Assembly (NCBI GenBank): GCA_004376375.1
Contig: SOJX01000034.1
Span: forward strand, 26,156 to 90,155
Direction: 5' to 3'
Source of the DNA: Planctomycetota bacterium
GTDB lineage: Bacteria; Planctomycetota; E44-bin39
Length of the DNA: 64,000 nucleotides
The notes beneath the pieces were generated by a model that made no database searches, was not told the origin of the DNA, and worked only from the letters and a program-made list of their open reading frames with translations. Made by a program: the position numbers and the translations under genes. Positions 38,514 to 56,766 of the stretch are shown one piece after another; positions within the stretch are counted from its first letter, which is position 1; every line of letters begins with the position of its first letter.

Positions 38514-41500
38514 ATGAACTCCCGCAGATTTCTTTCCGTTATATTCCTGGGTTTCACTCTTGTGATAATTTCTTCACTCTTCGGCGGCGAGCGGGCCGAC
38601 GCTCCCCGAATCCCGTCGTCGCAGGAGCTTCTCAGGAGGTTCGACAAGGACGGCGACGGCGCAATCACCCGCGCGGAGTGGGGCGCGCAGCCCCAGATGT
38701 TTCAGCGGCTCGACACCAACCGCGACGGCGTACTTGTCGCCGACGAACTCAAGACGCTCGACCGCGCACGCCGGGACAGGGCGTCCGGCGACAGGCCCGC
38801 CGCCCGGACCGCAAGACGCATACTGGTAAAAAGACGCCAGCCCGTTGAAACGGCGTATACGCTTGAAAACCTTTCGTGCGAGAAAGTCACGATTACCGCG
38901 CTCGTGCCGAAGGCCAGGCGCGGCGTGAAAGTAAAATCTTTTGCGAAAGGCTTCAATCGTGAAGTCCTGGCAGTAAAAGATGGAAAAGTTACAGTGAAGC
39001 TTAACGCCGATCCTGTGCTTGTCGAAGAAGGAGACGTTCCGCTGGCGGTAAGGAAGGAAGCGCGCCCGCATACCGCCGGGCCGTTCGGGTTTTTCAGGGT
39101 TCTGACTTTCTCCCGCGAGCAGATGATGCAGGAAGGCCTGAACGAATCCGAAATAATAAACTGGATTCGCAAGTGGAAGGTCCCGCAGGTGCGTTACCTC
39201 GGCGTGACATGCGAGCGCGTGCACCCCATGTACATGCCGAGCTTCGCGTGGGACCGCGTCGACCCGGACTTCGACGGCAAGGAGTTGAACTTCAAGCTGA
39301 CGGACGCGCTCGTAAAACTTGCGCAGGAAAACAGAATCCAGCTCCTCCCGTGCTTCTCCCCGCACTCCAACTTCCACCGGGACGAAAAATATTTACCCGA
39401 CGATTCCGACGCGTACAAGGCGTACGTGTCCGCGGTCGTCGAGCGCTACGACGGGGACAGCGAAAACGACATGCCGGGCCTGAAGTACAAGATCGAACGC
39501 TGGCAGGCGGACAACGAGCCCGACCTGCATAACAAAATAAGGCCGTACTACTGCCTTCCGCAGGAGTATGCGAAAGTCCTCAAGCTGACGCACGAGGCCG
39601 TCAAGTCCGCCGACCCGAACGGTATCGTGGTCCTGGCCTCTTCCTGCGGAGAGGCGCAGACCGACAACCGGCCCGTTTCGCGGCGCTACTTCGCCCAGTG
39701 CATCAAGTACGGGATCGGCGACCACTTCGACGAGATTTCGTTCCACTACTACCCCGTCAGCTACCGTATTTCCGAACTGGCCGCGTATTACGACCAGATA
39801 AAAAACATGTTCGGGAAAGAATACCCGTTTTCGATTACCGAAATCTGCGTCTCGAGCAAGACAAAAGAAACGATGACGTTCAACAGGTACGCCGGCGCAA
39901 ACGAGCGTACGCAGGCCGCGTTCATCGCCCGAATCCACGCGTGGCTCTGCGCCCGGCCCGCCCGTCACATCTGCTGGAACACGTTTAATGACCTCGCCCC
40001 CAGCCGCACCCGCGGCCGGGACGTAATGATGAACCGATGGGCGTGGGGTTCGTTCATCGAGCACGAAACGGGAAACAAAAAGCTTTCCTACTTCACCTAC
40101 AAGCTGCTCTCCGACAAGCTCGGCGGTGTCGACCCGGCAAAAACGAAAATCCTCTCCGAAGAGCCGGGCGGGATACACGCCTACCGTTACAGCATCGGAA
40201 AAAAAGAGAAAAAAATCTATATCGCATGGAACGAATACTTCGAAACGAAGCCGACGAGGAAACCTGGCGAGCCGCGCGACCGGAAAAAACTCGCCGCCTC
40301 GCCGTTCGGTATAACGGGCGGGCTTGCATATCCGAGGCGCGAAGCGAACAAGGATGGACTGTCGGTCTCCGAAGGATTCTTGCGCATCGAGCGCGAGCGC
40401 ATCGCGCTCCTCGACGAGGTGGGCGCAGGCTGGGTCCGCGTGCGGCCGGACGAGTTCCCCGCCAACTTCGCGTTCGGGTCGATCCTCATGCAGAGGGGGA
40501 TAATGGAAGTCGGGTGGATGGACCGCATCGTAATGCTTGCGCAGTCGCGGAACCTTTCGCTCTGCGTCGTGCTCGCACCGCCGCGAAACCGGAGGCAGGT
40601 CGCGAACCTCGCCGACAACCTGCCGCAGTGGGAGAACTACGTGCGCATCATCGTCGAGCGGTACGACGGCGACGGCGAAGACGACATGCCCGGCCTCGAG
40701 CACGGCGTCAAGCACTGGGAAATCGACTGCGACCTCGCGAAAAGCAAGAACCGCTACACGACGGACCAGTACGTCGAGCTTCTTCGCTCGGCCTGCGGCA
40801 GCGCGAAGAAGGCGGACAAGCACGCCATCGTCCATCTCGGCTCGGTGGGAAACATCGAAACTCTCAAGGAATTAATAAAAAAGGGCGCGGACCAGTTCTA
40901 CGATATCATCAATCTCAAATACGTGTCAGAATCGCCGGACCTTGCCGATTTCGAAAACCTGATCGCGGACGTTCGCGAAGAGTGCCCCGGCACGCCTTTA
41001 TGGATGGCGGAATACGGCGTTAACGAGAAAACTCAAAAAGACAACGAACCGACACAGGCGGTTTTATCCCCCGGTGAAAGAGAAACAAAATTCTTCGTGC
41101 AGGCGACGGTGACCGGCCTGGTGCTGGGTGCGGAAAAGATGTTCTGGAGTCCGATAACCGATGCGAACAGGTCAAAAGAACTCAAGGCTCTCGGTTTTTT
41201 CACGTCGCCGGACCTGAAGGCGAAGTCCGCAAAATACGCGGTCGAGAAATTCACATCGCTTCTCGAAGGCTGCGACCTTTCGAAAATCGAAGACGCCTCC
41301 GGCGAAGAAGAAACCAACTTCGCCTATAAATTCAAGGACAAGGACGAGAAAATCAGATTCATCGTCGGCTGGTGCGAGCCGACGTCGAAAAAGGAAAAAA
41401 CCTATTCCGTCGAGTTGTGGCTCCCCGACGGCGAGTACGAAATCCTTTCCGCCTTCCCCGACGGTACCGGAAAGTTTGAAACGAAAGCCGCAACCGCCAA

Positions 41501-41564
41501 AGGCGGCAAGCTGGCCCTGCCGCTAACTGCAATGCCGGTGTATGTTGTGCCGGTGAAGAAATAA
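38514..41564 (+). CDS. Secreted tandem GH-A-like glycosidase with EF hands
   Basis: 1016 residues with a signal peptide (about 1-24). Two EF-hand loops follow (DKDGDGAITRAEW, 44-56, and DTNRDGVLVADEL, 67-79), then a beta domain, then two TIM-barrel domains of GH39/GH5 type. Barrel 1 (about 190-540) has the acid/base glutamate in WQADNEPD (E335) and a nucleophile in SITEIC (E443). Barrel 2 (about 600-930) keeps the nucleophile-like MAEYG (E833), but the NEP position reads IDCD (738-740), so it may be inactive. A beta sandwich closes the protein. It probably cuts an unknown polysaccharide outside the cell. Confidence 0.78.
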   Translation: MNSRRFLSVIFLGFTLVIISSLFGGERADAPRIPSSQELLRRFDKDGDGAITRAEWGAQPQMFQRLDTNRDGVLVADELKTLDRARRDRASGDRPAARTARRILVKRRQPVETAYTLENLSCEKVTITALVPKARRGVKVKSFAKGFNREVLAVKDGKVTVKLNADPVLVEEGDVPLAVRKEARPHTAGPFGFFRVLTFSREQMMQEGLNESEIINWIRKWKVPQVRYLGVTCERVHPMYMPSFAWDRVDPDFDGKELNFKLTDALVKLAQENRIQLLPCFSPHSNFHRDEKYLPDDSDAYKAYVSAVVERYDGDSENDMPGLKYKIERWQADNEPDLHNKIRPYYCLPQEYAKVLKLTHEAVKSADPNGIVVLASSCGEAQTDNRPVSRRYFAQCIKYGIGDHFDEISFHYYPVSYRISELAAYYDQIKNMFGKEYPFSITEICVSSKTKETMTFNRYAGANERTQAAFIARIHAWLCARPARHICWNTFNDLAPSRTRGRDVMMNRWAWGSFIEHETGNKKLSYFTYKLLSDKLGGVDPAKTKILSEEPGGIHAYRYSIGKKEKKIYIAWNEYFETKPTRKPGEPRDRKKLAASPFGITGGLAYPRREANKDGLSVSEGFLRIERERIALLDEVGAGWVRVRPDEFPANFAFGSILMQRGIMEVGWMDRIVMLAQSRNLSLCVVLAPPRNRRQVANLADNLPQWENYVRIIVERYDGDGEDDMPGLEHGVKHWEIDCDLAKSKNRYTTDQYVELLRSACGSAKKADKHAIVHLGSVGNIETLKELIKKGADQFYDIINLKYVSESPDLADFENLIADVREECPGTPLWMAEYGVNEKTQKDNEPTQAVLSPGERETKFFVQATVTGLVLGAEKMFWSPITDANRSKELKALGFFTSPDLKAKSAKYAVEKFTSLLEGCDLSKIEDASGEEETNFAYKFKDKDEKIRFIVGWCEPTSKKEKTYSVELWLPDGEYEILSAFPDGTGKFETKAATAKGGKLALPLTAMPVYVVPVKK

Positions 41565-41611
41565 GAAGCTTTAATCGGCTCTGAACAGAAGAGGGAAAAC
41601 GGCAAACGGAA

Positions 41612-42250
41612 TCAATTCGCCTCTTCTTCCTCAGCCTCTTCCTTCTCGTCCGATTCCGGCTTCTTTATTACCCATTCGACCTCATCATCGCCGGCAATGT
41701 CGGCCGTGGTCCATCCGACAATAAAATCAATTAGCTCAATTACGTTTACGCCGACCCTGACGGTGACGAACCCGGCGGTCGCGCTGACATGAACATCGCC
41801 GACGAAATATACCCATTCCGGCTTATTCATAGCGTCCAGTTGCATTGGGCCGCCGAGAAAGAAAACCGTCCACATGGCCGGGTCGTCCACGTAAAGCCAG
41901 CTTGTCAGGGAAAGCCCCGAGGCATAACAGAACCCCGCGCCTTCAGGCTCGTAAAACCCATTAAAGATGTGGATATTCGAGAGCGGGAACCCCAACTCCG
42001 TATAGTCGTTCCAGAAGAAAATCTCCCGGTCGCGCATGCCCGCAACTTTCGCTTTTGCGCCTCCAAAGCCGATGCCGAGCGGCCCGACAACCGCATGGGC
42101 CGACAAACCGTAACCCAGGCCGATATGCGCCGTAAAGATATCAGCCGCATCCGACCCGCGGTCCTTCAAATACGCGCAGCCGGTGATGCAGGTCATCGTA
42201 AAAAACAATGTAATTGCAATCCCGAAATTTATAAACAAAGACCGTTTCAT
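41612..42250 (-). CDS. Short lipoprotein of a four-member paralogous family (member 4)
   Basis: 212 residues with lipobox TGCAY. After the cysteine it carries the family signature GCAYLKDRGSDAADIF, glycine-rich strands (HIGLGYGLSAHAVVGPLGIGFGG) and the closing motif RVGVNVIELIDFIVGWTTADIAGDD. The tail is acidic. It has no ankyrin repeats. Its ATG overlaps the stop of the preceding gene by 4 bases (ATGA). It is the last gene of the operon. The shared domain is not one I recognise; its alternating hydrophobic pattern suggests an envelope beta-structure. Confidence 0.8.
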   Translation of the reverse strand: MKRSLFINFGIAITLFFTMTCITGCAYLKDRGSDAADIFTAHIGLGYGLSAHAVVGPLGIGFGGAKAKVAGMRDREIFFWNDYTELGFPLSNIHIFNGFYEPEGAGFCYASGLSLTSWLYVDDPAMWTVFFLGGPMQLDAMNKPEWVYFVGDVHVSATAGFVTVRVGVNVIELIDFIVGWTTADIAGDDEVEWVIKKPESDEKEEAEEEEAN

Positions 42251-44118
42251 TTCTGTTTTTCCTTTTCCGCTTTCAGCTTGGCACCCCTTTTGCCGCCGTT
42301 GGCGCGAAGAAGGCTTGTGATTTTGGTATAGCCTCGTTCAATTGCAATATCCAGCGCTGTTTTCCCGTTCCCATCGGAAAGGTTGATATCCGCACCCTTT
42401 TCTATAAGGAGCTTCGTGATATTCAGCCTGGAGTCAGGGTGATAATTATATTTGGAATTTACGGCCAGGTGTATCGGGGTTATACCGTTTTTTGTTCTCG
42501 CATTAACGTCGGCGCCGTTTTCGACAAGCGGCTTAACTTTCCAGATATTCGATATCCCCGCCGCCTCGTGAAGCGGTGTGGTTCCGTCTTTTATTTTCGC
42601 ATTGACATCCGCGCCGTTATCTATCAGGAATTTCGCAGTCCTGCGCTCGAGGTCATGGTTCAGGCCCCCCGTGTCTGCCGCAAGATCGTGTAGAGGAGTT
42701 CTTCCTTCATAATCGGTGCAATTAACGTCTGCACCTTTTGAGACAAGGTACTCGCACATTTCCGGCCCCATAGACGAACGCTTCGCGGCGAGGTGTATTA
42801 CTTTTTTCCCTTTATGGTTTCCATAATTGACGTGGGCCCCGCCTTCGACCAGCGCCTTCACTATCGAAAACTTGTATTTACCTGCCGCGAGCGTCAGCGG
42901 GGTCCAGCCGTCCCTGCCCGAGCGGTAATTGAGCTCGACATCCTCCTCGATAAGCATTATCGCTATATTATCGGCATCGTGATTGATTGCGTAATCGAGC
43001 GGCCGCCACTCTCCTTCGGCGACCATGTTCAGGTCGGCGCCTTTCTCGATCAGCACTTTCACAACTTCTGTCTTCTTGCGTGCTATGGCCACCTGAAGCG
43101 GCGTTCTACCTTTTTTCTCCCAATGCCAACTCCCATCCATAACATTCATATCCGCCCCGCCGTCGCAAAGGACTTCGACAATCTCGGCGTAGCCTCTTTC
43201 GGCCGCAGCATGCAACGCGGTGTAATCACTCCCACTACATTTACTATTGATATTGAGGTCCACCCCCCACTCCACGAGCAACTCCACAGTTCTGGCGAAA
43301 TGCCGTTTCGTGGCGTATAGAATTTCGGGTGCAGGTTCGTCCACACCGAAGAAGGGGAGATACTCGAGAGGGTTAAGCCAGTATCTGCGGCGGGGCCACT
43401 CCTTGAAAAGATATTCCCATTCATCTTCATCTTCAGGAAACTTTGCCAGCAATGTCTTTTTCGCACGCTCGCCTTTCTCCAGCAGGCAAATCAGCGCCGC
43501 CACCCTCTTTTTTCTTTCTTTCGACGACAGCATGTCCGTCAACTCATCCAGACTGAGGCCTTCGTACTCGGAGGCAAGCCTCGCGACGGCCGGGGGCTTC
43601 TGCCCATCGTCCTGCATGATGTCATACGTCGTGAAACCGAGCAGGAAATCGGCAAGCTCCGTCGGGCTGATGCCAATTCGCAATCCAAAATATCCGGCAT
43701 GAACATGAACGCTTGTGTCGAGAGCCCAGGGCAAGACTTCTTTACTTTCGTAATCGAGCCACTTCAATGTATGCCAGTTTACAAGCCCGGCATATTGCAG
43801 ATACATATAATCGGTTTCACCGACAAACGAGCAGACGCCAAGTCCAACACACAGCATGTCAGAAAATCCTTCAGAACCCAGTTTCTCGGGTACGAAGTCT
43901 TTATCCCGAAACTTGATGGGGTAAGTATCGATCACGCCGAAGCCCACCATCGTTCCGAGAAAGCGCGTCGCCTCAATGTGCACTCCGAGCCCCGGTCCAA
44001 CGCTTGCCTCGAGGATGAAGATGTCGGAAAAATCCCGCAACCGGTCCTTCATGTATGCGCAGCCGGTGGAGACGGAGAAAAGAATAACAAGGAGGAATAA
44101 TAAATATATGCGCTTCAT
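42247..44118 (-). CDS. Ankyrin-repeat lipoprotein (member 3)
   Basis: 623 residues. Lipobox STGCAY, then the same N-terminal family domain (GCAYMKDRLRDFSDIF ... GISPTELADFLLGFTTYDIMQDD, about 20-165), a charged helical linker, and about nine ankyrin repeats from residue 290 to 610 (for example DGTTPLHEAAGISNIWKVKPLVENGADVNA). The anchor predicts the repeats are outside the cytoplasm. It overlaps both neighbours by 4 bases. The last four repeats are nearly identical to those of the paralogue at 44897. Confidence 0.85.
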   Translation of the reverse strand: MKRIYLLFLLVILFSVSTGCAYMKDRLRDFSDIFILEASVGPGLGVHIEATRFLGTMVGFGVIDTYPIKFRDKDFVPEKLGSEGFSDMLCVGLGVCSFVGETDYMYLQYAGLVNWHTLKWLDYESKEVLPWALDTSVHVHAGYFGLRIGISPTELADFLLGFTTYDIMQDDGQKPPAVARLASEYEGLSLDELTDMLSSKERKKRVAALICLLEKGERAKKTLLAKFPEDEDEWEYLFKEWPRRRYWLNPLEYLPFFGVDEPAPEILYATKRHFARTVELLVEWGVDLNINSKCSGSDYTALHAAAERGYAEIVEVLCDGGADMNVMDGSWHWEKKGRTPLQVAIARKKTEVVKVLIEKGADLNMVAEGEWRPLDYAINHDADNIAIMLIEEDVELNYRSGRDGWTPLTLAAGKYKFSIVKALVEGGAHVNYGNHKGKKVIHLAAKRSSMGPEMCEYLVSKGADVNCTDYEGRTPLHDLAADTGGLNHDLERRTAKFLIDNGADVNAKIKDGTTPLHEAAGISNIWKVKPLVENGADVNARTKNGITPIHLAVNSKYNYHPDSRLNITKLLIEKGADINLSDGNGKTALDIAIERGYTKITSLLRANGGKRGAKLKAEKEKQK

Positions 44119-44900
44119 TCTTCTTCCTCCCCGGATTCGGTTTCTTCCTCACGTTCCGTTTTCGATTTCATGTCGTCGCCGAGGATATCTGCGCCGAACC
44201 AGCCGGTCAGAAAATCGGCAAGCTCGACCGCGCTGAAGCCGACCTCCACCGACAGGAAGGCGGCGGCGTGTACGCGAAAATCGAAACGCCTGTAATGCGG
44301 AATCCTGATCACAGGCGGTCGCCTCCCGGCCCCATCCCGGCCCGACAACCTTTCCTTTTCATCCTCGACAGAAGGTTTGATCGGGTAAGGGTCCTTTTCC
44401 TCCTCCACATCATTCTTATCCGACTCGTCATCGGATACCATGTCTTCCAGCAGCATGCTTACGTTTATGCCGGCCAATCCGACGTATTCGGGGAAGTCGT
44501 CTGAATTTGAGAACTCGGTACCCGTGCACGCGCAGGCCAGCATCATCACCGGGCAGAACTCGCAGCCGGAAGCGCCGTGACCGTTCGGTATGAACGGGAT
44601 CATCGCGACAAACGGGGCGATGAGGGTGCATGCGGGCACACCGAGGACGGTGTTATCGCTTTCATAGTAGTAGCGCCCGACGTAGCCTAAATTGTATTCC
44701 CAGCTGACGCCAACGGCCGCGTATCCCGCGCCGAAGACCGATACGGACGCCGCCGCCGGCAGGCCCCCGCCGATCTTGAAGGAGAAAACGTCGACAAAAT
44801 CGAGCGCTCGGTCCTTTGCATACGCGCAGCCGGTAAAGCAGGTCACAGCCGTAAGTAATACAATTGCTATTCCGAGTTTTGCATATATCGACAGTTTCAT
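44115..44900 (-). CDS. Short lipoprotein (member 2)
   Basis: 261 residues. Lipobox FTGCAY and family signature GCAYAKDRALDFVDVF, closing with VGFSAVELADFLTGWFGADILGDD. It differs from member 4 by a cysteine-rich hydrophobic loop (GASGCEFCPVMMLACACTG, about 108-126) and an acidic stretch. There are no ankyrin repeats. It overlaps both neighbours by 4 bases. Confidence 0.8.
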   Translation of the reverse strand: MKLSIYAKLGIAIVLLTAVTCFTGCAYAKDRALDFVDVFSFKIGGGLPAAASVSVFGAGYAAVGVSWEYNLGYVGRYYYESDNTVLGVPACTLIAPFVAMIPFIPNGHGASGCEFCPVMMLACACTGTEFSNSDDFPEYVGLAGINVSMLLEDMVSDDESDKNDVEEEKDPYPIKPSVEDEKERLSGRDGAGRRPPVIRIPHYRRFDFRVHAAAFLSVEVGFSAVELADFLTGWFGADILGDDMKSKTEREEETESGEEEE

Positions 44901-46717
44901 TTCCGTTTTTCCTCTTCCATTTTTAAATCAGCGCCCCTCTTGCCGCCGAGCTTCTTTAGAAAATTTGCAACATCCCTGTCAGAGTATCGCCCCGTCTCGG
45001 CGAGATCGAGCGGCGTTCTGCCCTGCGTTGTCCAGGCGTTAATATCGGCGCCCTTCTCTATCAGGAGCGCGGTAATCTTCTCCTTTGAATGAAAAAAGTT
45101 GTAATTGGAATTCACGGCCCGGTGTATCGGGGTCATGCCGTTATTTGCTTTCGCCTTCACGTCGGCGCCGTTTTCGACGAGCAGCTTGACTGTCCAGATA
45201 TTCGATATCCCCGCCGCCTCGTGAAGCGGGGTCGTTCCGTCTTTTGCCTTCGCGTTCACGTCGGCACCGTTGTCGATAAGGAACTTCGCCGCCTTCAGAA
45301 GCTTACCTGTATTTACTCCCCCCACCTCCGCGGCCAGATCGTGGAGCGGCGTTCTGCCTTTCTTGTCCTTTGCGTTGACGTTCGCGCCGAGGGAGATGAG
45401 GTACTTCACCCTTTCGATGTTGTGGTAGTCGCCCTTTACCGTACCGTGGAGGATTGTCCTGCCGGTGTTCGTCGGGGTGCTTATGTCGACGCCCATATTC
45501 ACGATTTCCTCGAGAAGTTCATCGTCGCCGGAGGCATAGTGGAGGACTGAAGATCCGTCGCTGTCGGTTTTATGGATATCGAGCCCGGCTTCGATAAGCT
45601 TTCTGAGGATACCGTAGCGTTTGTGTCTCGCGACCTGGTCAAGTGGGGAGCGGCCGTACGACGCTTTTCCCCTGAAGACTTCCGCCCCTTTTCCAAACAG
45701 CATAAGGGCGATTTCGGCATGCCCGTTCTCAATGGCAACGCATATCGGGGTTCCGTCGTCATAGTCGCTTTTCTCGATATCGGCGCCGGCCTCCAGAAGC
45801 AGTTTCACAATCTCCCTGTTGCCGTTTTTTGCAGCCCGGTAAAGTGCGGTCTTTTGATCATTGTCATCATTGTCGATATGAACTCCCCAGTCGATAAAGA
45901 ACTCCACCAGCCGGGCCCAGCCTTTCTTTGCAGCCACGGCTATCTCCGGCTCGGGCTCACGGCCCCAGTAGGAGCGCTTGTTTGTCGGGATCAGCCAGTC
46001 CCTCCGCCACTCCCACTCCTTGATGATGTATTCGGCCGCCTTTTTTCCGTCCGGGAAGTTTTCAATCAGCGCCTCGTTGCCGTCGTCGCCGTGTTTGAGA
46101 AGGCCGATAAGCGCCCTGATTCTTTTCACTTTACTTTCAGATTCTAGGTCCGCGACGAGGTCGCCGATCGGCCAGATGTCGTCATCGCCGAGATCGAGAC
46201 CGAACCAGCCGAGCATGAAATCCGCGAACTCTCCCGGACTGAAGCCAAAGCGTGCGGCTACGACGCCCGCGACAACGCCAACCTCGAAGTCGAACGCGTT
46301 TACCGGGTCCCGGAAATGGTCCTTCCGCTTCAACGAGTCGTCGATCTCCCCCCGGTCGGTAAAATCATATGTAACAAAGCCTGCGCTCTTCGAAACGTAT
46401 CCGCCTTCGAGTATCCTGTCCTTGCCAAAAATCTGCCATTCATATCCGATTGTGGATTCGTCCATGATGAACAGGCCTATATGCGTGTTAAAGAACACTC
46501 CGGGGTTTCGCCCCTTGAATCCGAACTCGATTGCTACTCCGCCTCCGGCGCCTCCGGTTACGAAATTCGTCGCACGGAAGTTGACGTCCCCGCCCAGACC
46601 AAAACCGATACCGGCCTTGAAGCAGTCCGCGAAATCGAGCGCCCGGCTTTCCATGTACGCGCAGCCGGTGGAAAAGAAGATAGATAAAGCAAGAACCGGG
46701 ATCAGAAAATGTTTCAT
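44897..46717 (-). CDS. Ankyrin-repeat lipoprotein (member 1)
   Basis: 606 residues. Lipobox STGCAY, signature GCAYMESRALDFADCF, closing RFGFSPGEFADFMLGWFGLDLGDDD (about 165-190). A helical linker follows and then about nine ankyrin repeats (for example NDQKTALYRAAKNGNREIVKLL and DGTTPLHEAAGISNIWTVKLL). It overlaps the regulator gene upstream by 4 bases and the next lipoprotein by 4 bases. Confidence 0.85.
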   Translation of the reverse strand: MKHFLIPVLALSIFFSTGCAYMESRALDFADCFKAGIGFGLGGDVNFRATNFVTGGAGGGVAIEFGFKGRNPGVFFNTHIGLFIMDESTIGYEWQIFGKDRILEGGYVSKSAGFVTYDFTDRGEIDDSLKRKDHFRDPVNAFDFEVGVVAGVVAARFGFSPGEFADFMLGWFGLDLGDDDIWPIGDLVADLESESKVKRIRALIGLLKHGDDGNEALIENFPDGKKAAEYIIKEWEWRRDWLIPTNKRSYWGREPEPEIAVAAKKGWARLVEFFIDWGVHIDNDDNDQKTALYRAAKNGNREIVKLLLEAGADIEKSDYDDGTPICVAIENGHAEIALMLFGKGAEVFRGKASYGRSPLDQVARHKRYGILRKLIEAGLDIHKTDSDGSSVLHYASGDDELLEEIVNMGVDISTPTNTGRTILHGTVKGDYHNIERVKYLISLGANVNAKDKKGRTPLHDLAAEVGGVNTGKLLKAAKFLIDNGADVNAKAKDGTTPLHEAAGISNIWTVKLLVENGADVKAKANNGMTPIHRAVNSNYNFFHSKEKITALLIEKGADINAWTTQGRTPLDLAETGRYSDRDVANFLKKLGGKRGADLKMEEEKRK

Positions 46718-47064
46718 GTCGCACCTCCATTATTCTGACTTTCTGCGTCTTTCTCCTCCTGGAATTCGCTGACCATGCTGGCCATCATGTCGATATACTC
46801 CCGGAAAACTTCCCTCCCCTTGTCGGTCAGCCTGAAAGACGTCCGCGGTTTCTTTGCGATAAAGCGTTTCCTCACTTTTATTATGCCGTGCTTTTCAAGC
46901 GTCGAAATGTGCGTCGTCAGGTTTCCATCGGTCGCGCCGACGGTTTTCCTCAGGTTCGTGAAGCTTTCCTCCCCGGCCGAGTACAGCGTGCTCACGATCG
47001 CAAGCCGGATGGGTGAGTGAATAGCCTTGTTCAGTTCCGTGGGGTTGAAGCCTCGCTTACTCAC
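46714..47064 (-). CDS. Winged-helix transcriptional regulator heading the lipoprotein operon
   Basis: 116 residues with a MarR/ArsR-like winged helix of the HTH_34 type: IHSPIRLAIVSTLYSAGEESFTNLRKTVGATDGNLTTHISTLEKHGII is split over helices 1-3, then a wing with RKRFIAKKPRTSFRLTDKG. The start is GTG with GGAG 8 bases before. It is first in a five-gene chain joined by 4-base overlaps, and probably autoregulates the operon through the palindrome at 47234. Confidence 0.88.
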   Translation of the reverse strand: MSKRGFNPTELNKAIHSPIRLAIVSTLYSAGEESFTNLRKTVGATDGNLTTHISTLEKHGIIKVRKRFIAKKPRTSFRLTDKGREVFREYIDMMASMVSEFQEEKDAESQNNGGAT

Positions 47065-47155
47065 TCTGCCGCTCCGTCAGCTTGATGATGATTCCATAGG
47101 CAATCGAACCGATGCCCGGCGTCATGCCGGGGATTGTGAAAAAAGCATGTGCCAC
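47057..47155 (-). other. Possible small or decayed membrane ORF before the regulator
   Basis: On the minus strand a frame encoding VAHAFFTIPGMTPGIGSIAY, then GIIIKLTERQSE, ends at a TAA overlapping the regulator GTG by 8 bases. It looks like the last membrane helix and tail of a small protein. Its upstream part is cut by an in-frame TAA about 10 codons before the GTG at 47155, and no convincing ribosome site is present. It may be a remnant of a cotranscribed membrane gene. Confidence 0.3.
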
Positions 47156-47233
47156 AACCCCGGGATTCCGGAATATGCTGGATTACATGCCTGTCATCCA
47201 TGTCACCCTCTCCGGCTTAACTCATCATCAAAG

Positions 47234-47252
47234 TACTTTGCTTTTCAAAGTA
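47234..47252. promoter_or_regulatory. Operator-like inverted repeat
   Basis: TACTTTG / CAAAGTA with a 5-base spacer. It sits beside a TATACT-like -10 sequence on the minus strand, upstream of the regulator operon, a typical place for winged-helix autoregulation. Confidence 0.45.
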
Positions 47253-47468
47253 TAATAACACATTCTGCCGCAAAGGGTAGGTAAAAATTAAGAATTATTT
47301 TACAGCCGGATAGATATGAAACATCAGCGCGCCTAACTTCCTTTTATATATGGGAGTTAGGCCTTCGCATAACGGTCTAAGTTTTTCTGTGACTCATCGC
47401 CGGCCGTGCGATTACAAGGCCAAAGGTACGGCCTCAGGGGAGGATGGAACAGAACAATCAAGCACGGA
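47253..47468. other. Spacer with an isolated hairpin
   Basis: The hairpin GCCTAACT / AGTTAGGC (47331-47362) lies 107 bases beyond the archaemetzincin stop and could end its transcript, though it lacks a T-run. I see no gene in the rest. Confidence 0.4.
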
Positions 47469-48359
47469 CTACACGTGTGAATTCAGAGATGACAGCAGGC
47501 GTTTCTGAAACGCGGCGGCCCGGCGCCAGCCCGAGCGGGTGTAATAACTTTTCAGGCGGCGGCAGTGTTTTGAGAGGTCGAGGCGGAAAGCCCACTCCAC
47601 TTTAGCCAGGCACACGGGGCAGAGCGAAAGCGGGATGCGGTCGGATTCTTTGACCGAGTTGGCGCCGTTCATCAGACAGCGGAAGTACGGGCAGTGCTCC
47701 ATGCCGACGGCGTGGCCGAGCTCGTGGGCGGCGTTCTTTGCAATCCTGATTGCATCACTTTTGCGTTGGCCTTTTCGCCCGCAGCGGGCAAGGGAAATGA
47801 CGGCCGCCCTCCCCTTGAGGGCGGAAATGCCTGCAACGTCTCTCAGCCTGCCGCGCGAGAGATGCTCGCCGGTGACGCCGAGGACCGCAATGGCATCGGA
47901 CGGAACCTGCGCGCCGAGCAGGTCGAGCACGGCGTCCGCATCGTACTGTCTGCGGCGGGGATTGTATAACGAATCATCCAGCAGCACACGCCTCGAAGCG
48001 CACACGCGGCAGTCAAAAAAAGCCCGCAGAAACGCGGCTACGGCTTTCACCTGGCGCGGCGCTCTTGTACCGGGCGGCGCCATCGGGACAACGAGGATGC
48101 TGCTGCGCTTCTGATTTATTCGCGGGGGTTCCAGCCTGTGGAACTCGCTGAATGTCTGGCCGCGCTCGGGAACGGCGTAAAGCCACTCGCCCTTCCTGAC
48201 TTTTTCGACGGGCTTGAACTCGAAAACGTCCGCCTTCACGGCCGCAAGAGGCGGTCTCATGCGCGTTGCCGCTTTCGCGAGGTCGGCAAGCGCATGTGCG
48301 CGCAGGCGCTTGAGCGTCCGCATGGAGAGGTGGCTGTTTTTTCTGCTATGTGGCGACAC
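47469..48359 (-). CDS. Archaemetzincin-type zinc protease
   Basis: 296 residues. It has the full metzincin site HELGHAVGMEHC (212-223) followed by C228, the Met-turn M230 and a CPVC pair (247-250), the cysteine pattern of archaemetzincins. The N-terminal 50 residues are basic and may not be folded. The start could be the GTG used here or the ATG 12 codons in. The family is common in archaea and animals but patchy in bacteria. No signal peptide is visible, so it is probably cytoplasmic. Its substrate is unknown. Confidence 0.88.
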   Translation of the reverse strand: MSPHSRKNSHLSMRTLKRLRAHALADLAKAATRMRPPLAAVKADVFEFKPVEKVRKGEWLYAVPERGQTFSEFHRLEPPRINQKRSSILVVPMAPPGTRAPRQVKAVAAFLRAFFDCRVCASRRVLLDDSLYNPRRRQYDADAVLDLLGAQVPSDAIAVLGVTGEHLSRGRLRDVAGISALKGRAAVISLARCGRKGQRKSDAIRIAKNAAHELGHAVGMEHCPYFRCLMNGANSVKESDRIPLSLCPVCLAKVEWAFRLDLSKHCRRLKSYYTRSGWRRAAAFQKRLLSSLNSHV

Positions 48360-48419
48360 TTCTACTTCTGCTGCGTCTCTCGGAAGCGTTTTTCGGCATG
48401 TGGATTAGGCCCATTCTAA

Positions 48420-48512
48420 CCCGGCTTTTACATGTTGCAAACGGAAAACTCGGTTGTTCAGTTATTCGGTTATTCAGTTGTTCGGTCATTCGGTCATTCG
48501 GCCAATAAGGTT
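48420..48512. repeat. Low-complexity spacer
   Basis: Contains near-tandem words TTCGGTTATTCAG, TTCGGTCATTCGG between about 48450 and 48500. No gene seen. Confidence 0.6.
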
Positions 48513-48540
48513 TTGACTTCGCGGACGGGGCTGTGATACT
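48513..48540 (+). promoter_or_regulatory. Promoter of the aldo/keto reductase gene
   Basis: TTGACT (48513-48518), 16 bases, GATACT (48535-48540), 35 bases before the ATG. Confidence 0.55.
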
Positions 48541-48575
48541 ATCGTTCCCTCAACCTAAAAACTCCCGGAGATGAA

Positions 48576-49517
48576 ATGGAAAAGATAGAACTGGGAAAAA
48601 CGGGAATCATGGTCACGCCGATATGTTTCGGCGCATGGGAAATCGGCGGCGAGCCGTTTTTCAAATCAACAGACAAAAGCCAGGCCGTAAAAGCGATAAA
48701 CACCGCGCTCGACATCGGCATCAACTTCATCGACACCGCTCCCATCTACGGCTTCGGGCGCTCGGAAGAAATTCTCGGCGAAGCGCTCGAAGGTAAAAGG
48801 AAGGATGTTGTCCTCGCGACCAAGTGCGGCATTGTCTGGGAAAAGAAGGTAACGAAATCCATCCGCATCGACGACAGCAGGAAGGTTATCGAAGCGGATG
48901 TTGAAAGAAGTCTGGAGCGATTACAGACGGATTACATCGACCTCTACCAGGTCCACTGGCCGGAAAAAGACATGAAGACGCCGATGGAAGAAACAATCGG
49001 AGCACTGGAGAGTCTGAAAGAAAAGGGAAAGATAAGGGCATACGGCGTCTCGAACTTCAGCCGCGAGCTACTCGAATCCACCCTGCCGCATGGATCCGTT
49101 TCCACCGTGCAGAACCAGTTCAGCATTGTCCGTGACGATAAACAGGATGCGGAATTCGAGTTCTGCAAAGAGCACGGCCTTTCCTTCATGGCCTACTCCC
49201 CCCTGAACCGCGGCCTGCTGACCGACAAATTCGAAAAGAACTTCAAGGAAGACGAAAACATGGTCGTGCGAGACATGAGCAATGCCGATACCTTTGAGTC
49301 AGAACAGACAAAGGCCCGCACACTTTACGAAATCGCCCGGGACAATAACATCAGCCTTTCCAACCTTGCCCTCAACTACACACTCAACCACACAGGCATC
49401 GACATAACAATCGTAGGCAGCAAGACGCCGGCCCACGTCGAGGAGCTTAAAAACGTGTTTTCGTTTACCCTCAACGATAAGACCGTCGGAATGATTGAGA
49501 AGGTCATTAATTCGTAG
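48576..49517 (+). CDS. Aldo/keto reductase
   Basis: A 313-residue NADPH-dependent oxidoreductase with the full TIM-barrel pattern. The tetrad is visible: D in FIDTAPIYG with its tyrosine, K in VLATKCGIV, and H in LYQVHWPE. The C-terminal cofactor site IVGSKTPAHVEEL is present. It resembles the YajO/YdhF-like general subfamily rather than a defined pathway enzyme. GGAG precedes the ATG. Confidence 0.92.
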   Translation: MEKIELGKTGIMVTPICFGAWEIGGEPFFKSTDKSQAVKAINTALDIGINFIDTAPIYGFGRSEEILGEALEGKRKDVVLATKCGIVWEKKVTKSIRIDDSRKVIEADVERSLERLQTDYIDLYQVHWPEKDMKTPMEETIGALESLKEKGKIRAYGVSNFSRELLESTLPHGSVSTVQNQFSIVRDDKQDAEFEFCKEHGLSFMAYSPLNRGLLTDKFEKNFKEDENMVVRDMSNADTFESEQTKARTLYEIARDNNISLSNLALNYTLNHTGIDITIVGSKTPAHVEELKNVFSFTLNDKTVGMIEKVINS

Positions 49518-49520
49518 TCT

Positions 49521-49584
49521 CCTTGCTTCCTTGTCTCCTTGTCTCCTTGTCTCCTTGTCTCCTTGTCTCCTTGTCTCCTTGTCT
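49521..49584. repeat. Octanucleotide tandem repeat
   Basis: Eight copies of CCTTGTCT, the first degenerate, directly after the reductase stop codon. The copy number could vary between strains. It is not a CRISPR: units are contiguous without spacers. Confidence 0.9.
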
Positions 49585-49614
49585 GTTATCAGCAGCCAAC
49601 CATGCAAATAGATA

Positions 49615-49642
49615 TTGATTTCCCGCGCGCAGGTTGTATAAT
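49615..49642 (+). promoter_or_regulatory. Promoter of tRNA-Pro
   Basis: TTGATT (49615-49620), 16 bases, perfect TATAAT (49637-49642), 13 bases before the tRNA. Confidence 0.65.
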
Positions 49643-49655
49643 TGATAATGAACGA

Positions 49656-49730
49656 CGGGGCGTGGCGCAGCCTGGGTAGCGCGCTTGACTGGGGGTCAAG
49701 AGGTCGGTGGTTCAAATCCACTCGCCCCGA
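49656..49730 (+). tRNA. tRNA-Pro (anticodon GGG)
   Basis: Cloverleaf with acceptor stem CGGGGCG / CGCCCCG, D-arm around 49664-49680, anticodon stem CTTGA / TCAAG with loop CTGGGGG (anticodon GGG), T-arm GGTGG TTCAAAT CCACT, and discriminator A. CCA is not encoded. The 3' end coincides with the end of the recombinase gene on the other strand and with the left end of the integrated element. Confidence 0.93.
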
Positions 49731-51211
49731 CTATCCTTCATAAAGGGCCGTTCGGCTAAAAAGTCGAACGGCTTTCTCTTTATCATCACAAGACTTACGT
49801 TCGAAATAGTACGGTTCGAACTCACGCAATTCAATATCTCGCGCCGAACGGCAGAGTTCGAACCGCGCCAGATATTTGCCAGGTTCTGGCTGAAATCGAA
49901 CACGGACAATGCCATCTCGCCGTAGGACGGCTCGAAGTTCCCTGCCGCGTCCAGTTGCCGCTCCATCTCTTCCGCCTCCCGCTTGAATTCCACCGACTTG
50001 GCGTGAAACGCGGCCTCGTCAACCGTGCCTGCGAGGTATCCATTGAGCAGGCGGTCCTGCATGTTGGCGAGCTCGCTTTTCCGCTTGACCAGCATCTTTC
50101 GCTGTTGTTGTTGCGTATAGGACACGTCGGAAAAGGCCTCGGCCAACGTATCCCGGAACCAGTCCGCAATCTCCTGCGACGGGATGCGCATAGAATCCAG
50201 TTCTTTCAGGATGGCCGCCTCGACGTCTTCCTCTCGCCAGCGAACCTTGGGGTGGTCATCCGGTTGGTGGTTATTCCCGCACTTGTAATAGACGTGGACA
50301 TTGCGGCCGCCGTTTCTCAGCTTACGTCGTATCTGCTCGCCCGTAATGGCGTGGCCGCAGATGGTGCAACGCAGGACGCAGCCCGAGAGCATAATGTCCG
50401 GATTGCCCGTGCGGCGGTTCTTGCCTTTCAAGAGATTTTGACAGACATCGAAAGTCGGTCTGTCGATAAACAGTTTATACTTACCGGGATAAATCTTGCC
50501 GTTACGTTTTAGCTCGCCGGTGTAGAAACGGTTATTCATAATGTAGGAGAGCGTAGTCCTATTGAAGCGCGGCTGACTGGGGCGATAGGTATGGCCTTCA
50601 GCCTGCAATTTATCGGCAAGGCTTTTAAACGTGTAGTTGCCACTGGCATAGAGTTCAAAGATGCGGGCTACCGTTCTTAACTTCTCTGGATGCGGTTTGA
50701 CAGGTTCATCGCAGTCGTCCACGTTCACGTACCCGAAAGGTGCATGTCCCGTGGGCCAGCCCTGGCGAACTTTCTCGTCCATACCCTTCAGAACTTCGGA
50801 ACGCAGGTTGTCGGAATAGTATTGCGCGACCGCGGCCATGACATTGAAGGAAAGCGCGCCTGCGGCACCGGGACCGAACTGGTTGTCAACAAACGCGAGC
50901 TTCACACCGCAAGCATCTTCCAGTTCCTGAAGGCGAACAGCGTCACGCATATTGCGGCAGACGCGGTCGAGCTTGTGGGCGAGGATGGCATTGATTTTTT
51001 CGCGCTTGGCGTTGGCCTTCACCCATTTGAACATCTTGTTGAAGACCGTTCGCTCTGCGCCGCGTTTAGCGGATTCTGCAACATCGAATTCACGAACAAT
51101 CGTCCAGCCGTTTTTGGTGGCCTTGTCCCGCATGGCGCGGAGCTGGGCGTCGATGGAGTAGCCTTCCCGTTGCTCGCGGGATGACACTCTTGCCCAAACC
51201 ACTACGTTCAC
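49712..51211 (-). CDS. Large serine recombinase (integrase) at the left end of the element
   Basis: 499 residues. The resolvase-like domain starts VVVWARVSSREQREGYS with the catalytic serine (S10), and DRVCRNMRD and related arginines follow. The recombinase domain (about 150-260) contains GHAPFGYV and FYTGELKRNGKIYPG. A zinc ribbon carries CTICG and a later CGNN, followed by a coiled coil (about 360-440). The start is GTG with GGGAGGTGA upstream. The last codons lie in the T-arm of tRNA-Pro, so its gene end is part of the attachment site. It integrates or excises the phage-like element. Confidence 0.92.
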   Translation of the reverse strand: MNVVVWARVSSREQREGYSIDAQLRAMRDKATKNGWTIVREFDVAESAKRGAERTVFNKMFKWVKANAKREKINAILAHKLDRVCRNMRDAVRLQELEDACGVKLAFVDNQFGPGAAGALSFNVMAAVAQYYSDNLRSEVLKGMDEKVRQGWPTGHAPFGYVNVDDCDEPVKPHPEKLRTVARIFELYASGNYTFKSLADKLQAEGHTYRPSQPRFNRTTLSYIMNNRFYTGELKRNGKIYPGKYKLFIDRPTFDVCQNLLKGKNRRTGNPDIMLSGCVLRCTICGHAITGEQIRRKLRNGGRNVHVYYKCGNNHQPDDHPKVRWREEDVEAAILKELDSMRIPSQEIADWFRDTLAEAFSDVSYTQQQQRKMLVKRKSELANMQDRLLNGYLAGTVDEAAFHAKSVEFKREAEEMERQLDAAGNFEPSYGEMALSVFDFSQNLANIWRGSNSAVRREILNCVSSNRTISNVSLVMIKRKPFDFLAERPFMKDSRGEWI

Positions 51212-51474
51212 TTCGCATCACCTCCCTGTTTTGCTCTCATCAACACTTCAGCCGTTCGTTTCACGTTTATCAGAATTTCCACAGCCTCCTCTTCGCTTAC
51301 GGGCCGGCCATAGGCTCTCGACCAGACCCGCTGAGTCTTGGCCAGCAGGTCGTCCGAAATCCAGGCCATGAATAGCGAACGCCCCTCGGCTTTTCCAGGG
51401 CACTGGACATGTTCGCTCTTCGGGACCCCAAATCCAGTCTTTTCTGAGGAATTCTTTATGCCCACGATATCCAT
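51208..51474 (-). CDS. Small protein coupled to the recombinase
   Basis: 88 residues, overlapping the recombinase start by 4 bases (GTGA). The second half, DDLLAKTQRVWSRAYGRPVS then EEEAVEILINVKRTAEVLM, is helical and resembles small proteins encoded before serine recombinases in other elements. It may modulate integration. The start could also be the internal ATG at codon 36. Confidence 0.6.
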   Translation of the reverse strand: MDIVGIKNSSEKTGFGVPKSEHVQCPGKAEGRSLFMAWISDDLLAKTQRVWSRAYGRPVSEEEAVEILINVKRTAEVLMRAKQGGDAK

Positions 51475-51495
51475 AACTCCTTGCTATTTCAGGGG

Positions 51496-51999
51496 TTAGT
51501 CGTGGGCTGTTTCGTCCAGGCCGAGTGCAAGAAGGTGCTTGCGAATGCGGCGCATCAGGCGGTCCACCGTGTGCCATCCACAGCCGAGCGCATTGGCAAT
51601 CTGAAGCTTGGAATATCCGCGTCCGAGCAGGCAGCAGACCATGTACTCCCGCATCGGGAGAAACTCTACAGCCTCCCGCACGTCGTTGACCCAACATTCG
51701 CTGGGCGTTGAAGCGTAAGCTCGTTTCCGTTCCACTGCGAGTCGTTCCAGGTGCGCCCTGTAACGCGTCTCGGAACGCCGGAGTTTTTTCAGGCGGTTGT
51801 CGATGAGCGCGATGAGCGCTGTTGTTTCCGTCGCGCCGTTTGATTTCGCCGTATCGTATCGGAAGTGCATCACGTCGAGGATAAGCTCCTGCTGCAAATC
51901 CTCCATCTCGTCGCAGCGGAATCCCATGCGCTTGGCGCGGCTGATGATCAGGTCTACTTTCCAGGATTCCACGAGTCCGTCGTAATCGAGTCTGTTCAT
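51496..51999 (-). CDS. Phage-encoded sigma-like factor
   Basis: GAGAGGA lies 7 bases before the ATG at 51999, giving 167 residues. It has a region-2-like helix set (DEMEDLQQELILDVMHFRYD, about 30-50) and a C-terminal region-4 helix-turn-helix (LPMREYMVCCLLGRGYSKLQ, then IANALGCGWHTVDRLMRRI, about 115-155). It probably directs RNA polymerase to phage promoters or acts as a late activator. Confidence 0.7.
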   Translation of the reverse strand: MNRLDYDGLVESWKVDLIISRAKRMGFRCDEMEDLQQELILDVMHFRYDTAKSNGATETTALIALIDNRLKKLRRSETRYRAHLERLAVERKRAYASTPSECWVNDVREAVEFLPMREYMVCCLLGRGYSKLQIANALGCGWHTVDRLMRRIRKHLLALGLDETAHD

Positions 52000-52289
52000 G
52001 TCATTCCTCTCGTTCAAAAAAAAGTCACGCGATTAACCGGAACTGTTCCGGTCTCCTGGACTCCATTCTCCACGCGCAAGGGGACAAGGTATGTAGGACT
52101 GAAAGTGAGCAAGGCAACTCACGTGAGCAGTCAGGTGAGCGCTACATGGGGGACATTTCACTCACGTGAGTGCTCACGTGAGTTACTCAAGAGCGGCGAA
52201 AAAACGGGCTGAGCGGGTAATAACCAAGTGCAGGCACGAGCAGTCAACGGGCTGCAAGAACGTGACCGGCATTCCGTGCAGGAGAAAAA
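52000..52289. promoter_or_regulatory. Divergent control region with CTCACGTGAG operators
   Basis: The 290-base gap between the leftward sigma-like gene and the rightward nuclease gene has three exact copies of the palindrome CTCACGTGAG at 52118-52127, 52161-52170 and 52173-52182. Half-sites lie at 52105 (GTGAGC) and 52131 (CAGGTGAGC). The last two centres are 12 bases apart, about one helical turn. This is how a dimeric phage repressor would bind. No repressor gene is recognised nearby. Confidence 0.65.
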
Positions 52290-53099
52290 ATGAATGCTTC
52301 GAAAACACCGGACTTCATCTTCAGCGAACCGGAAAAGGTGTATCGCGCAAAGGCAAAGGAAAATCTAAGCAGTCATCAGTTGGCCGATTTCCGAAAGTGT
52401 CCGCAGCTATACCGAAAAAAACAACTGGACTTGATCAAAGATGAAGACCGGCCCGCGTACCTGATAGGTCGCGCGGCGCACAAGCTGATTCTGGAGGGGC
52501 AGGATACATTTAATAAGAGCTACGCCGTAGGCGGGCCGGTCAATCCGCGCACCGGCAATGTCTATGGAGCGAATACTAAGGCTTACCACGAGTGGGCAGA
52601 CGCGCAGGGCAAGCCGGCCCTGACCGACGCGCAGTCCGCGCTCATCACAAATCTGGCCGCGGGTGTCCAAGCCCATAAATTGGCGAAGGTGCTGCTTTCA
52701 GAAGGCATCGCAGAAGGTGTGGTCCGCACCGAGTATTGCGGCATCCAGTGCCAGGCGCGATTCGACTTCTTCAATCCTGGGAGGGGGGTTATTGATCTCA
52801 AGACGTGCGACGATCTCACATGGTTCGAGGTCGACGCGCGCCGGCACGGTTACCTACATCAGGTCGCCTTCTACCGTGCAGTTCTTGCTGCCGCAGCCGC
52901 TGGAAAAATGTTCCCTGTTCATCTCATCGCCGTGGAGAAGAAGGAGCCATACCGCTGCGGTGTGTGGCGCGTAGGCGATGACGTTCTCGGCATGGCGCAA
53001 AAAGAGAATGAGGCGGCGATGCGCCGCGTTCTGAAGTGCCGAGAGGTCGATAACTGGCCCACCGGCTACGAGGAAGTCCGGACATTCGATTACCTGTGA
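52290..53099 (+). CDS. PD-(D/E)XK phage exonuclease (RecE/Cas4-like)
   Basis: 269 residues. The nuclease core has a conserved histidine in GRAAHKLILEG (about 60-70), then RTEYCGIQCQARFDFF and GVIDLKTCDDL (D and K of the active site, about 165-175), with QVAFYRAVL behind. This matches the PDDEXK_1/DUF3799-type exonucleases of phage recombination modules. It is the first gene of the rightward early operon, with AGGAG before the ATG. Confidence 0.85.
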   Translation: MNASKTPDFIFSEPEKVYRAKAKENLSSHQLADFRKCPQLYRKKQLDLIKDEDRPAYLIGRAAHKLILEGQDTFNKSYAVGGPVNPRTGNVYGANTKAYHEWADAQGKPALTDAQSALITNLAAGVQAHKLAKVLLSEGIAEGVVRTEYCGIQCQARFDFFNPGRGVIDLKTCDDLTWFEVDARRHGYLHQVAFYRAVLAAAAAGKMFPVHLIAVEKKEPYRCGVWRVGDDVLGMAQKENEAAMRRVLKCREVDNWPTGYEEVRTFDYL

Positions 53100-53203
53100 A
53101 TCAAGGCGCTGGCCGGGTGGGATGGCGTAACGGCATGGCTAACCGTTGGGACTCCCTGTATCCATCTGTTTCCAGCGCCACAATATGAAAGGAGGTCACT
53201 ACC

Positions 53204-53971
53204 GTGACACTGCTCGAACAAGTACAGAGCGGGCGGCAACCCGCGCCACGCCGGGTGATGTTATACGGCACGCACGGCATCGGCAAATCGACCTTCGGGT
53301 CAATGACCCCGAAGCCAATATTCATCCAGACCGAGGACGGTCTCGGCGAGATCGACTGCGAAAAGTTTCCGCTCGCGGAAACGTTCGACCAGGCCATTTC
53401 GGCCCTCTCGGAACTCTATTCCGAAAAACATCCGTATCGAACGGTCGTGGTCGACTCGCTCGACTGGTTGGAGCGCCTGATCTGGGCTGACGTCTGCCAG
53501 AAACGCATGATCGAGAGCATCGAAGACATCGGTTATGCGAAAGGGTACACCTTCGCGCTTACGCAGTGGCGCGAGTTTCTGGAGGGACTGACCGCGCTGC
53601 GTAACGAGCGCGGGATGATGGTGCTCCTCATTGCCCACACGAAAATCGAGCGCTTCGAGAACCCGGAAACGGAATCTTACGACCGGTACGTGCCGCGCCT
53701 GCATAAGCTGGTTTCGGCAGTAATCCAGGAGTGGTGCGATGAGGTCCTCTTCGCGACCTACAAGGTCTACACAAAAGTCACCGACGAGGGCTTCAACCGG
53801 AAGAAGGCCAAGGGTTGCGGCAGCGGCGAGCGGATCATGCGGACGACCGAACGCCCCGCCCACATGGCTAAGAACCGTTTCAACCTGCCGGACGAGCTCC
53901 CGTTCGACTGGAACGCTTACGCAGAATACTTACCTCAACTCAACGGAGAAAAAAACAATGGCAAAGCTTAA
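53204..53971 (+). CDS. Sak4-like phage recombination ATPase
   Basis: 255 residues with Walker A LYGTHGIGKST (20-30) and Walker B TVVVDSLDWLE, the RecA-core pattern of phage Sak4/AAA_24 proteins that anneal single strands. The start is GTG, with AAAGGAGGT upstream. It overlaps the DUF669 gene by 14 bases. With the exonuclease and DUF669 protein it forms a homologous recombination unit. Confidence 0.85.
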   Translation: MTLLEQVQSGRQPAPRRVMLYGTHGIGKSTFGSMTPKPIFIQTEDGLGEIDCEKFPLAETFDQAISALSELYSEKHPYRTVVVDSLDWLERLIWADVCQKRMIESIEDIGYAKGYTFALTQWREFLEGLTALRNERGMMVLLIAHTKIERFENPETESYDRYVPRLHKLVSAVIQEWCDEVLFATYKVYTKVTDEGFNRKKAKGCGSGERIMRTTERPAHMAKNRFNLPDELPFDWNAYAEYLPQLNGEKNNGKA

Positions 53972-54413
53972 CGGATTCAACGCAAACGAAGTCGACCCCA
54001 TGGACACCTTCGATCCCATCCCGGCCGGGAAATACATGGCGGTCATCACGGAATCGGAGATGAAGCCGACGAAGTCCGGCAATGGCTCATACCTCGAGTT
54101 CGTTTTCCAGGTCATCGAGGGCGAGTTCAAGGGCCGGCTCCTGTGGTCGCGTCTCAACCTTGACAACCCGAACGAGCTCACCGTCAAGATCGCGCAGGGC
54201 GAGCTGTCCGCAATCTGCCGCGCAGTGGGAGTGATGCAGCCGAAAGACAGCGTCGAGCTTCATAACATCCCGCTCCAGGTCACGGTGAAATGCAAGAAGC
54301 GCAAGGATACTGGCGAGATCGTGAACGAGGTCAAGGGTTACGCCAAGAAGGAGGCGGCGACGGGACAGCCGAAGCAGGCGGGGAACAACACCCCTCCCTG
54401 GTCGCGTAAATGA
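53958..54413 (+). CDS. DUF669 single-strand-binding-like phage protein
   Basis: The frame opens at 53739, but GGAG and the ATG at 53958 give 151 residues. The beginning, GFNANEVDPMDTFDPIPAGKY, and YLEFVFQVIEGEFKGRLLW are DUF669 signatures. The OB-like fold and neighbours support an SSB-type role in phage recombination. Confidence 0.85.
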   Translation: MAKLNGFNANEVDPMDTFDPIPAGKYMAVITESEMKPTKSGNGSYLEFVFQVIEGEFKGRLLWSRLNLDNPNELTVKIAQGELSAICRAVGVMQPKDSVELHNIPLQVTVKCKKRKDTGEIVNEVKGYAKKEAATGQPKQAGNNTPPWSRK

Positions 54414-55040: not shown

Positions 55041-55044
55041 TGCT

Positions 55045-56754: not shown

Positions 56755-56766
56755 GGGCTATATGCT

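Follow-up and report, generated by a model that had tools for sequence, protein, structure and literature searches.

The stretch of 64,000 nucleotides analyzed here (the window; positions 26,156 to 90,155 of contig SOJX01000034.1 of a Planctomycetota bacterium, from a 5.68-Mb assembly of 157 contigs that is 93.8% complete) harbors a run of five genes on the minus strand at 41612..47064, encoding one winged-helix regulator and four lipoproteins. The regulator gene (46714..47064, 116 amino acids) is followed by the genes for ankyrin lipoprotein 1 (44897..46717, 606 amino acids), short lipoprotein 1 (44115..44900, 261 amino acids), ankyrin lipoprotein 2 (42247..44118, 623 amino acids), and short lipoprotein 2 (41612..42250, 212 amino acids). 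An initial annotation, made from the sequence alone, had described an exact 4-base overlap at every junction, and all four junctions (46714-46717, 44897-44900, 44115-44118, and 42247-42250) were indeed found to read ATGA, with the start codon placed over the stop codon. Such overlaps are by themselves commonplace in operons. Ribosome-binding sequences, as judged by reading, were strong before the first and second ankyrin genes and weaker before the short genes.

The regulator matched PF13601 (HTH_34) with an E-value of 5e-25 and a score of 87.9 bits against a gathering cut-off of 27, the match covering the whole profile (1-80 of 80), in agreement with the earlier assignment of a winged-helix regulator to this gene run. 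Its nearest solved sequence is PH1061 (1ub9). Two paralogs of the regulator, with 59% and 43% identity, are present in the source genome, and each of them (C125 and C42) follows a gene for a membrane protein, of 193 amino acids in C125 and of 208 or 204 amino acids, depending on the start, in C42. A simple count gave five hydrophobic segments for each of these membrane proteins, and neither matched a Pfam family above its cut-off. The regulator was also found in 17 of 58 other genomes (E ≤ 1e-12), all 58 being relatives from outside the family of the source genome. Besides the locus in the window, 21 regulator loci were examined, two from the source genome and 19 from relatives. The gene before the regulator was a membrane frame with at least four hydrophobic segments in 13 of the 21 loci, and in 12 it overlapped the regulator or lay within 3 bases of it.

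A perfect palindrome, CAAAGTACTTTG, is located at 47229-47240, 164 bases upstream of the regulator gene, and forms together with a third half-site (ACTTTG-N5-CAAAGT, 47235-47251) the predicted operator of the operon (47229..47251, minus strand). In the entire assembly, the perfect form of CAAAGTACTTTG occurs only twice, upstream of the operon of the window and of the C125 pair. In C42, a form with one mismatch, TAAAGTACTTTG, lies between the sequences TTGACG and TATAAA as judged by reading. When the 21 other regulator loci were scanned whole, seven were seen to carry the palindrome with at most one mismatch, five of them belonging to the 19 loci of relatives; it was perfect in three, and in 6 of the 21 it was placed upstream. 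Sixty shuffled palindromes used as a control gave a mean of 0.07 loci and a maximum of one. Pairs of a polytopic membrane protein and an HTH_34 regulator (loci L017-L018 and L091-L109) were observed to be spread in the phylum, some of them with a CAAAGTACTTTG site.

Compared with the pair that carries CAAAGTACTTTG, the window retains the upstream palindrome and lacks an intact membrane-protein gene before the regulator, of which only a remnant was detected. Alignment to the 193-amino-acid C125 membrane protein revealed this remnant, the C-terminal end of a membrane-protein gene, at 47057..47158 (minus strand); the score was 76, whereas none of 500 single-base shuffles scored above 44. The stop codon of the remnant overlaps the start of the regulator gene by 8 bases, as in C125. 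Direct reading also showed a leader frame of 46 codons (47061..47201, minus strand), which follows a ribosome-binding sequence, overlaps the regulator start by 4 bases, and begins in a frame other than that of the remnant. This frame probably represents the shifted remains of the membrane-protein gene and is perhaps a translated leader. The initial annotation had recorded neither the palindrome nor the leader frame nor the remnant. Hence, the leader is likely to be a gutted membrane-protein gene, the presumed ancestral partner of the regulator having been lost.

These pairs raise the question of an immunity or signaling unit of the SdpR-SdpI kind directed against an exported toxin, in which the lipoproteins would now act as immunity factors. 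In sdpRI, the polytopic protein sequesters the autorepressor (PMC1626106), and the paralogous pairs of the source genome resemble this system in uniting a polytopic membrane protein and a winged-helix protein in one operon. However, the SdpR model (NF033789), which has a cut-off of 100 bits, scored only 12 bits (E 0.14) with the regulator of the window, the paralogous pair starts with the membrane gene, and the membrane protein has decayed in the window. PADLOC, run on the regulator and the two short lipoproteins, returned only winged-helix matches (Csa3/CasR), all to the regulator, and a defense system was rejected on this basis. A unit of this kind is considered highly improbable.

At their N termini, all four lipoproteins have a signal-like sequence and a lipobox (STGC, FTGC, STGC, and ITGC) followed by Ala. 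By the Lol rule of E. coli, a lipoprotein without Asp after the Cys is sorted to the outer membrane, and since Asp is absent from this position in all four, outer-membrane sorting is predicted for them. The proteins share an N-terminal domain that starts with the motif R-x-x-D-x-x-D and ends with E-x-x-DF-x-x-G-x-x-x-x-D-x-x-x-DD in all four, which corroborates the earlier description of paralogous lipoproteins with a common N-terminal domain. The reported alternation of ankyrin and short forms was also recovered, as Ank_2 matched the two long lipoproteins (E 9e-71 and 6e-54) and neither of the short ones. Against Pfam, the short lipoproteins gave no match at E ≤ 1 and the long ones matched ankyrin models only; the domain, described earlier as one not recognized, accordingly has no match among Pfam families. 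Over their C-terminal 20 residues, the ankyrin lipoproteins are basic (eight Lys/Arg each), and the short ones have an acidic tail (11 and 9 Asp/Glu, respectively).

Structural modeling with AlphaFold2 was based on an alignment of 18 rows. The model of the 212-amino-acid protein was of moderate quality, with a mean predicted local distance difference test score (pLDDT) of 67.9, and showed the signal helix, a helix at 28-36, strands at 39-55, 58-73, and 76-87, a stretch at 90-141 with pLDDT below 50, a strand at 152-169, and a helix at 170-180. The model of the 606-amino-acid protein (mean pLDDT 77.6) showed the same domain over residues 1 to about 181 (86-138 being unsure), a helical linker at 184-238, and ten ankyrin helix pairs at 258-589. 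For this protein, the model thus gives one repeat more than the earlier count of about nine, the presence of ankyrin repeats in two of the lipoproteins being upheld. A fold search with the model of the shared domain gave no significant match to a solved structure, and no solved relative was found by sequence.

All 18 rows show hydrophobic residues alternating with small or polar ones in the first strand of the domain; in the other strands, this pattern is less distinct or missing. Insertion of the strands into a membrane can only be guessed from the models. On such a guess, the domain could be an outer-membrane building block, four amphipathic strands from each lipoprotein joining into a shared ring or pore from which the ankyrin forms would hang binding arms, and the regulator, having lost its membrane partner, would have captured an unrelated set of lipoproteins under its operator. 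CsgG is an analogue for lipoprotein strands that form a shared ring or pore. Such an assembly is regarded as very doubtful.

To evaluate the distribution of the domain, a profile built from 11 copies of the source genome was searched against this genome and other genomes of the same phylum. It identified 13 copies in the source genome and matches in 17 of 39 other genomes, with tandem copies in several and a maximum of 33 matches per genome, pieces counted. The genome with this maximum (G019) showed several matches that were short or had internal stops, suggesting a large expansion with possible decay. A pattern scan of genome contigs gave eight loci, assigned to Planctomycetota, a Kuenenia metagenome-assembled genome (MAG), a groundwater bacterium, RUG12838 (which we take to be a rumen label), a Lentisphaerae MAG, and a Verrucomicrobia MAG. 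Word searches for homologues returned at least five and two proteins, three and one of them new; those not new were two of the window's own proteins (P0001 and P0006) and the C133 copy of the source genome (P0002).

Comparison with curated families revealed a match of all four lipoproteins to NF047817 (LIC13411_adhesin), with E-values of 2.6e-6, 8.9e-6, 8.3e-10, and 4.7e-12 in gene order. The scores of 26 to 46.5 bits do not reach the curated cut-off of 150, and the matches are mainly C-terminal, the best stretch covering the last 34-40 profile positions and ending at 210 of 210. A match at E ≤ 0.01 was given by 18 of 18 members of the wider domain alignment; this count is partly circular because nine of the rows were gathered through conserved-motif patterns, one motif of which lies at the C-terminal end that matches NF047817. 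The search for a described family among relatives of the domain hence yielded a remote relative, LIC13411, at scores far below the family cut-off, and the sequences point to a scattered family with a remote tie to the LIC13411 outer-membrane family.

LIC13411 is recovered in the outer-membrane fraction and promotes attachment to endothelial cells (PMC9354625). This observation, together with the matches of all scanned domain members, would fit a role of the window proteins as surface adhesins, in which the domain works as in LIC13411 by binding cells or particles and the ankyrin arms widen the range of ligands. The low scores, the restriction to the end of the profile, and the partly circular count speak against this role, and a shared motif does not transfer adhesion; adhesins are considered unlikely.

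Nine of the 13 domain copies of the source genome were found to be fused to, beside, or in an operon with ankyrin or HEAT proteins. The ankyrin fusions of the window account for two of them and the short lipoproteins of the same operon for two more, three lie beside an ankyrin gene, and the remaining two are HEAT fusions (E 3e-12 and 2e-25); a further copy has an insignificant HEAT match (E 0.06). For the copies C84, C133, and C18, no association with ankyrin or HEAT proteins was seen. The adjoining ankyrin gene overlaps the domain gene by 4 bases in C39, lies 112 bases on in C26 (longest frames), and is convergent in C128; in all three, the ankyrin protein carries a hydrophobic anchor or a sequence resembling a lipobox at its N terminus. 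For an assumed total of about 4800 genes, adjacency of three of nine copies to ankyrin genes by chance has a P of about 0.002. The start of the C39 ankyrin protein aligned with the linker of ankyrin lipoprotein 1 with a score of 67 against a maximum of 50 in 500 shuffles, and owing to this resemblance the domain and ankyrin parts appear to exist as fusions as well as in separate, adjacent genes. Elsewhere, ankyrin fusions were found in P0007, from a Joint Genome Institute (JGI) metagenome, and in G010.

Ankyrin repeats in exported proteins could also indicate a periplasmic stress scaffold of the AnkB kind, which would support an envelope enzyme such as catalase. Exported ankyrin proteins in such a role are on record (AnkB and Cj1386, by the titles cited in PMC7567364). 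No catalase was seen among the flanking genes tested, which encode a glycosyl-hydrolase core, an M54 peptidase, and an aldo/keto reductase, and a scaffold of this kind is judged to be quite unlikely.

The order of the four lipoproteins (ankyrin, short, ankyrin, short) had been attributed to a plain tandem duplication of a two-gene unit. The order itself fits such an event, as does an ankyrin block of 323 bases in lipoprotein 1 (45038..45360, minus strand) that is 76% identical to a block in lipoprotein 2 (42382..42707, minus strand). However, the phylogenetic analysis of the shared domain (26 rows) did not bear out the duplication. The domain of ankyrin lipoprotein 1 grouped with the P0007 ankyrin fusion (100/95), that of short lipoprotein 2 with a C128 copy (97/92), and that of short lipoprotein 1 with the HEAT-fused form of C128 (93/86, not starred), the domain of ankyrin lipoprotein 2 being an unplaced long branch. 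Approximately unbiased (AU) tests rejected the pairing of the ankyrin forms (p 0.013), that of the short forms (p 0.012), and the group of all four (p 7e-6); the rejection is weakened by the long branch of ankyrin lipoprotein 2. The 323-base block was the only close stretch between the two large genes, and four other matches to it in the genome were short pieces. A duplication of the two-gene unit is accordingly considered most improbable, and the set was probably put together from ancient paralogs whose ankyrin part later underwent exchange or duplication.

Taken together, the locus is best described, with roughly an even chance of being right, as an autoregulated operon that encodes outer-membrane lipoproteins with ankyrin arms for binding envelope proteins. 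The regulator would act as a repressor of the unit by binding to the palindrome in its own promoter. Its ancestral partner would have been the small polytopic membrane protein whose remnant is present in the leader, the lipoproteins now being placed under the same operator. Upon induction, the lipoproteins would be exported, lipid-anchored, and sorted to the outer membrane, where the shared domain, modeled as a helix followed by four long β strands and a last helix, may keep the protein attached to the membrane surface. Binding would be the task of the ankyrin arms, and the short forms could be co-assembling partners or spacers. The regulatory part of this proposal is fairly well supported. 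The gene sequences with their overlaps, the conservation of the palindrome, the remnant, the domain family, and its association with ankyrin and HEAT proteins are direct observations; from the features of the proteins, we infer their function as well as repression, outer-membrane location, and partner binding.

Several observations weigh against the proposed operon. The palindrome is absent from 14 of the 21 regulator loci, and its near-matches (≤1 mismatch) are not enriched in the genome (8 against 14 for the reversed pattern, and 5 against 14 for the spaced form), so the case for the palindrome rests on position and not on number. The promoter scan gave no match at the operon start, and the consensus promoter and terminator scan showed no excess over shuffles. 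The C42 membrane protein did not match the leader. Chance adjacency to ankyrin genes is not negligible since the source genome is rich in ankyrins (194 Ank_2 matches; at least 68 frames among the matches listed). The match of the C39 ankyrin protein to the linker of ankyrin lipoprotein 2 was weaker, being reached by 3 of 500 shuffles, and the C128 and C26 ankyrin proteins scored within shuffles. Outside the source genome, the domain stands mostly alone, with one ankyrin fusion (G010) in 38 stretches from relatives, no adjacent ankyrin gene among the displayed neighbors in these stretches, and no recognized recurrent neighbor family, one cluster of 15 frames in 12 loci being without assignment. 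The initial annotation had named a missing link between regulator and lipoproteins in relatives as a ground for refutation; neither the 38 stretches, which come from 15 relatives, nor the eight named-genome loci, some of them on short contigs, showed a regulator of this subfamily close to the domain. The linkage hence looks lineage-specific as sampled.

In the vicinity of the operon, a gene for an M54 (archaemetzincin-type) peptidase (47469-48359), with an N-terminal part that precedes the match, adjoins it on one side. At 38514-41564, a 1016-amino-acid exported-looking protein is encoded, which has EF-hands and a match to a glycosyl-hydrolase core and whose two halves look alike by eye. In the region 49656-59423, tRNA-Pro (ggg) precedes the gene for a large serine recombinase (49712-51211) and genes for replication of the phage type (DUF3799 nuclease, AAA_24, ResIII helicase, and Prim-Pol); it is a prophage-like element abutting tRNA-Pro. 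A phage origin of the operon was considered and rejected as phage-type genes were found only beyond tRNA-Pro and the operon lies on the opposite side, the far end of the element being unmapped. Among known RNA elements, only the tRNA was found in 40000-50500 at gathering scores, and none in the operon leader. A plasmid search with the 261-amino-acid protein, the sole protein tried, gave no match. In literature listings on LIC13411, exported ankyrins, PF13601, sdpRI, and planctomycete ankyrin lipoproteins, all from outside subscription journals, no description of the operon or the domain was seen.

Given the palindrome, a single purified protein and a short DNA fragment are enough to test the proposed regulation directly, and the leader remnant, if true, would preserve evidence that a regulator switched to another output gene. 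The lipoprotein domain, until now uncharacterized and present in many Planctomycetota, gains a family, a remote link to a studied surface protein of Leptospira, and a repeated association with ankyrin and HEAT solenoids, and may help to explain the role of exported ankyrin proteins in an ankyrin-rich planctomycete. The partner change of the regulator and the tie of the domain to helical repeats are both worth following.

Four known systems may be compared with the operon. Pseudomonas AnkB and Campylobacter Cj1386 are exported proteins that, like the ankyrin lipoproteins, combine a signal sequence with ankyrin repeats; to our knowledge, neither is joined to this lipoprotein domain, and the catalase gene linked to proteins of the AnkB type was not found among the flanking proteins scanned. 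The likeness to sdpRI of Bacillus subtilis lies in the shared operon of a winged-helix and a polytopic membrane protein, as seen in the paralogs and in many relatives, whereas the regulator is not of the same family by model score, the gene order is reversed, and the partner is decayed in the window. With HTH_34 regulators such as PH1061, the regulator shares a full-length domain match above the cut-off, the nearest PDB sequence being PH1061 itself, and it differs in heading a lipoprotein operon with no intact membrane gene ahead. The C-terminal part of the shared domain is similar to the LIC13411 family (NF047817), for which adhesion is reported in LIC13411, at scores far below the family cut-off; in this genome, in contrast, the domain is present in multiple copies and is fused to or placed beside ankyrin and HEAT solenoids.

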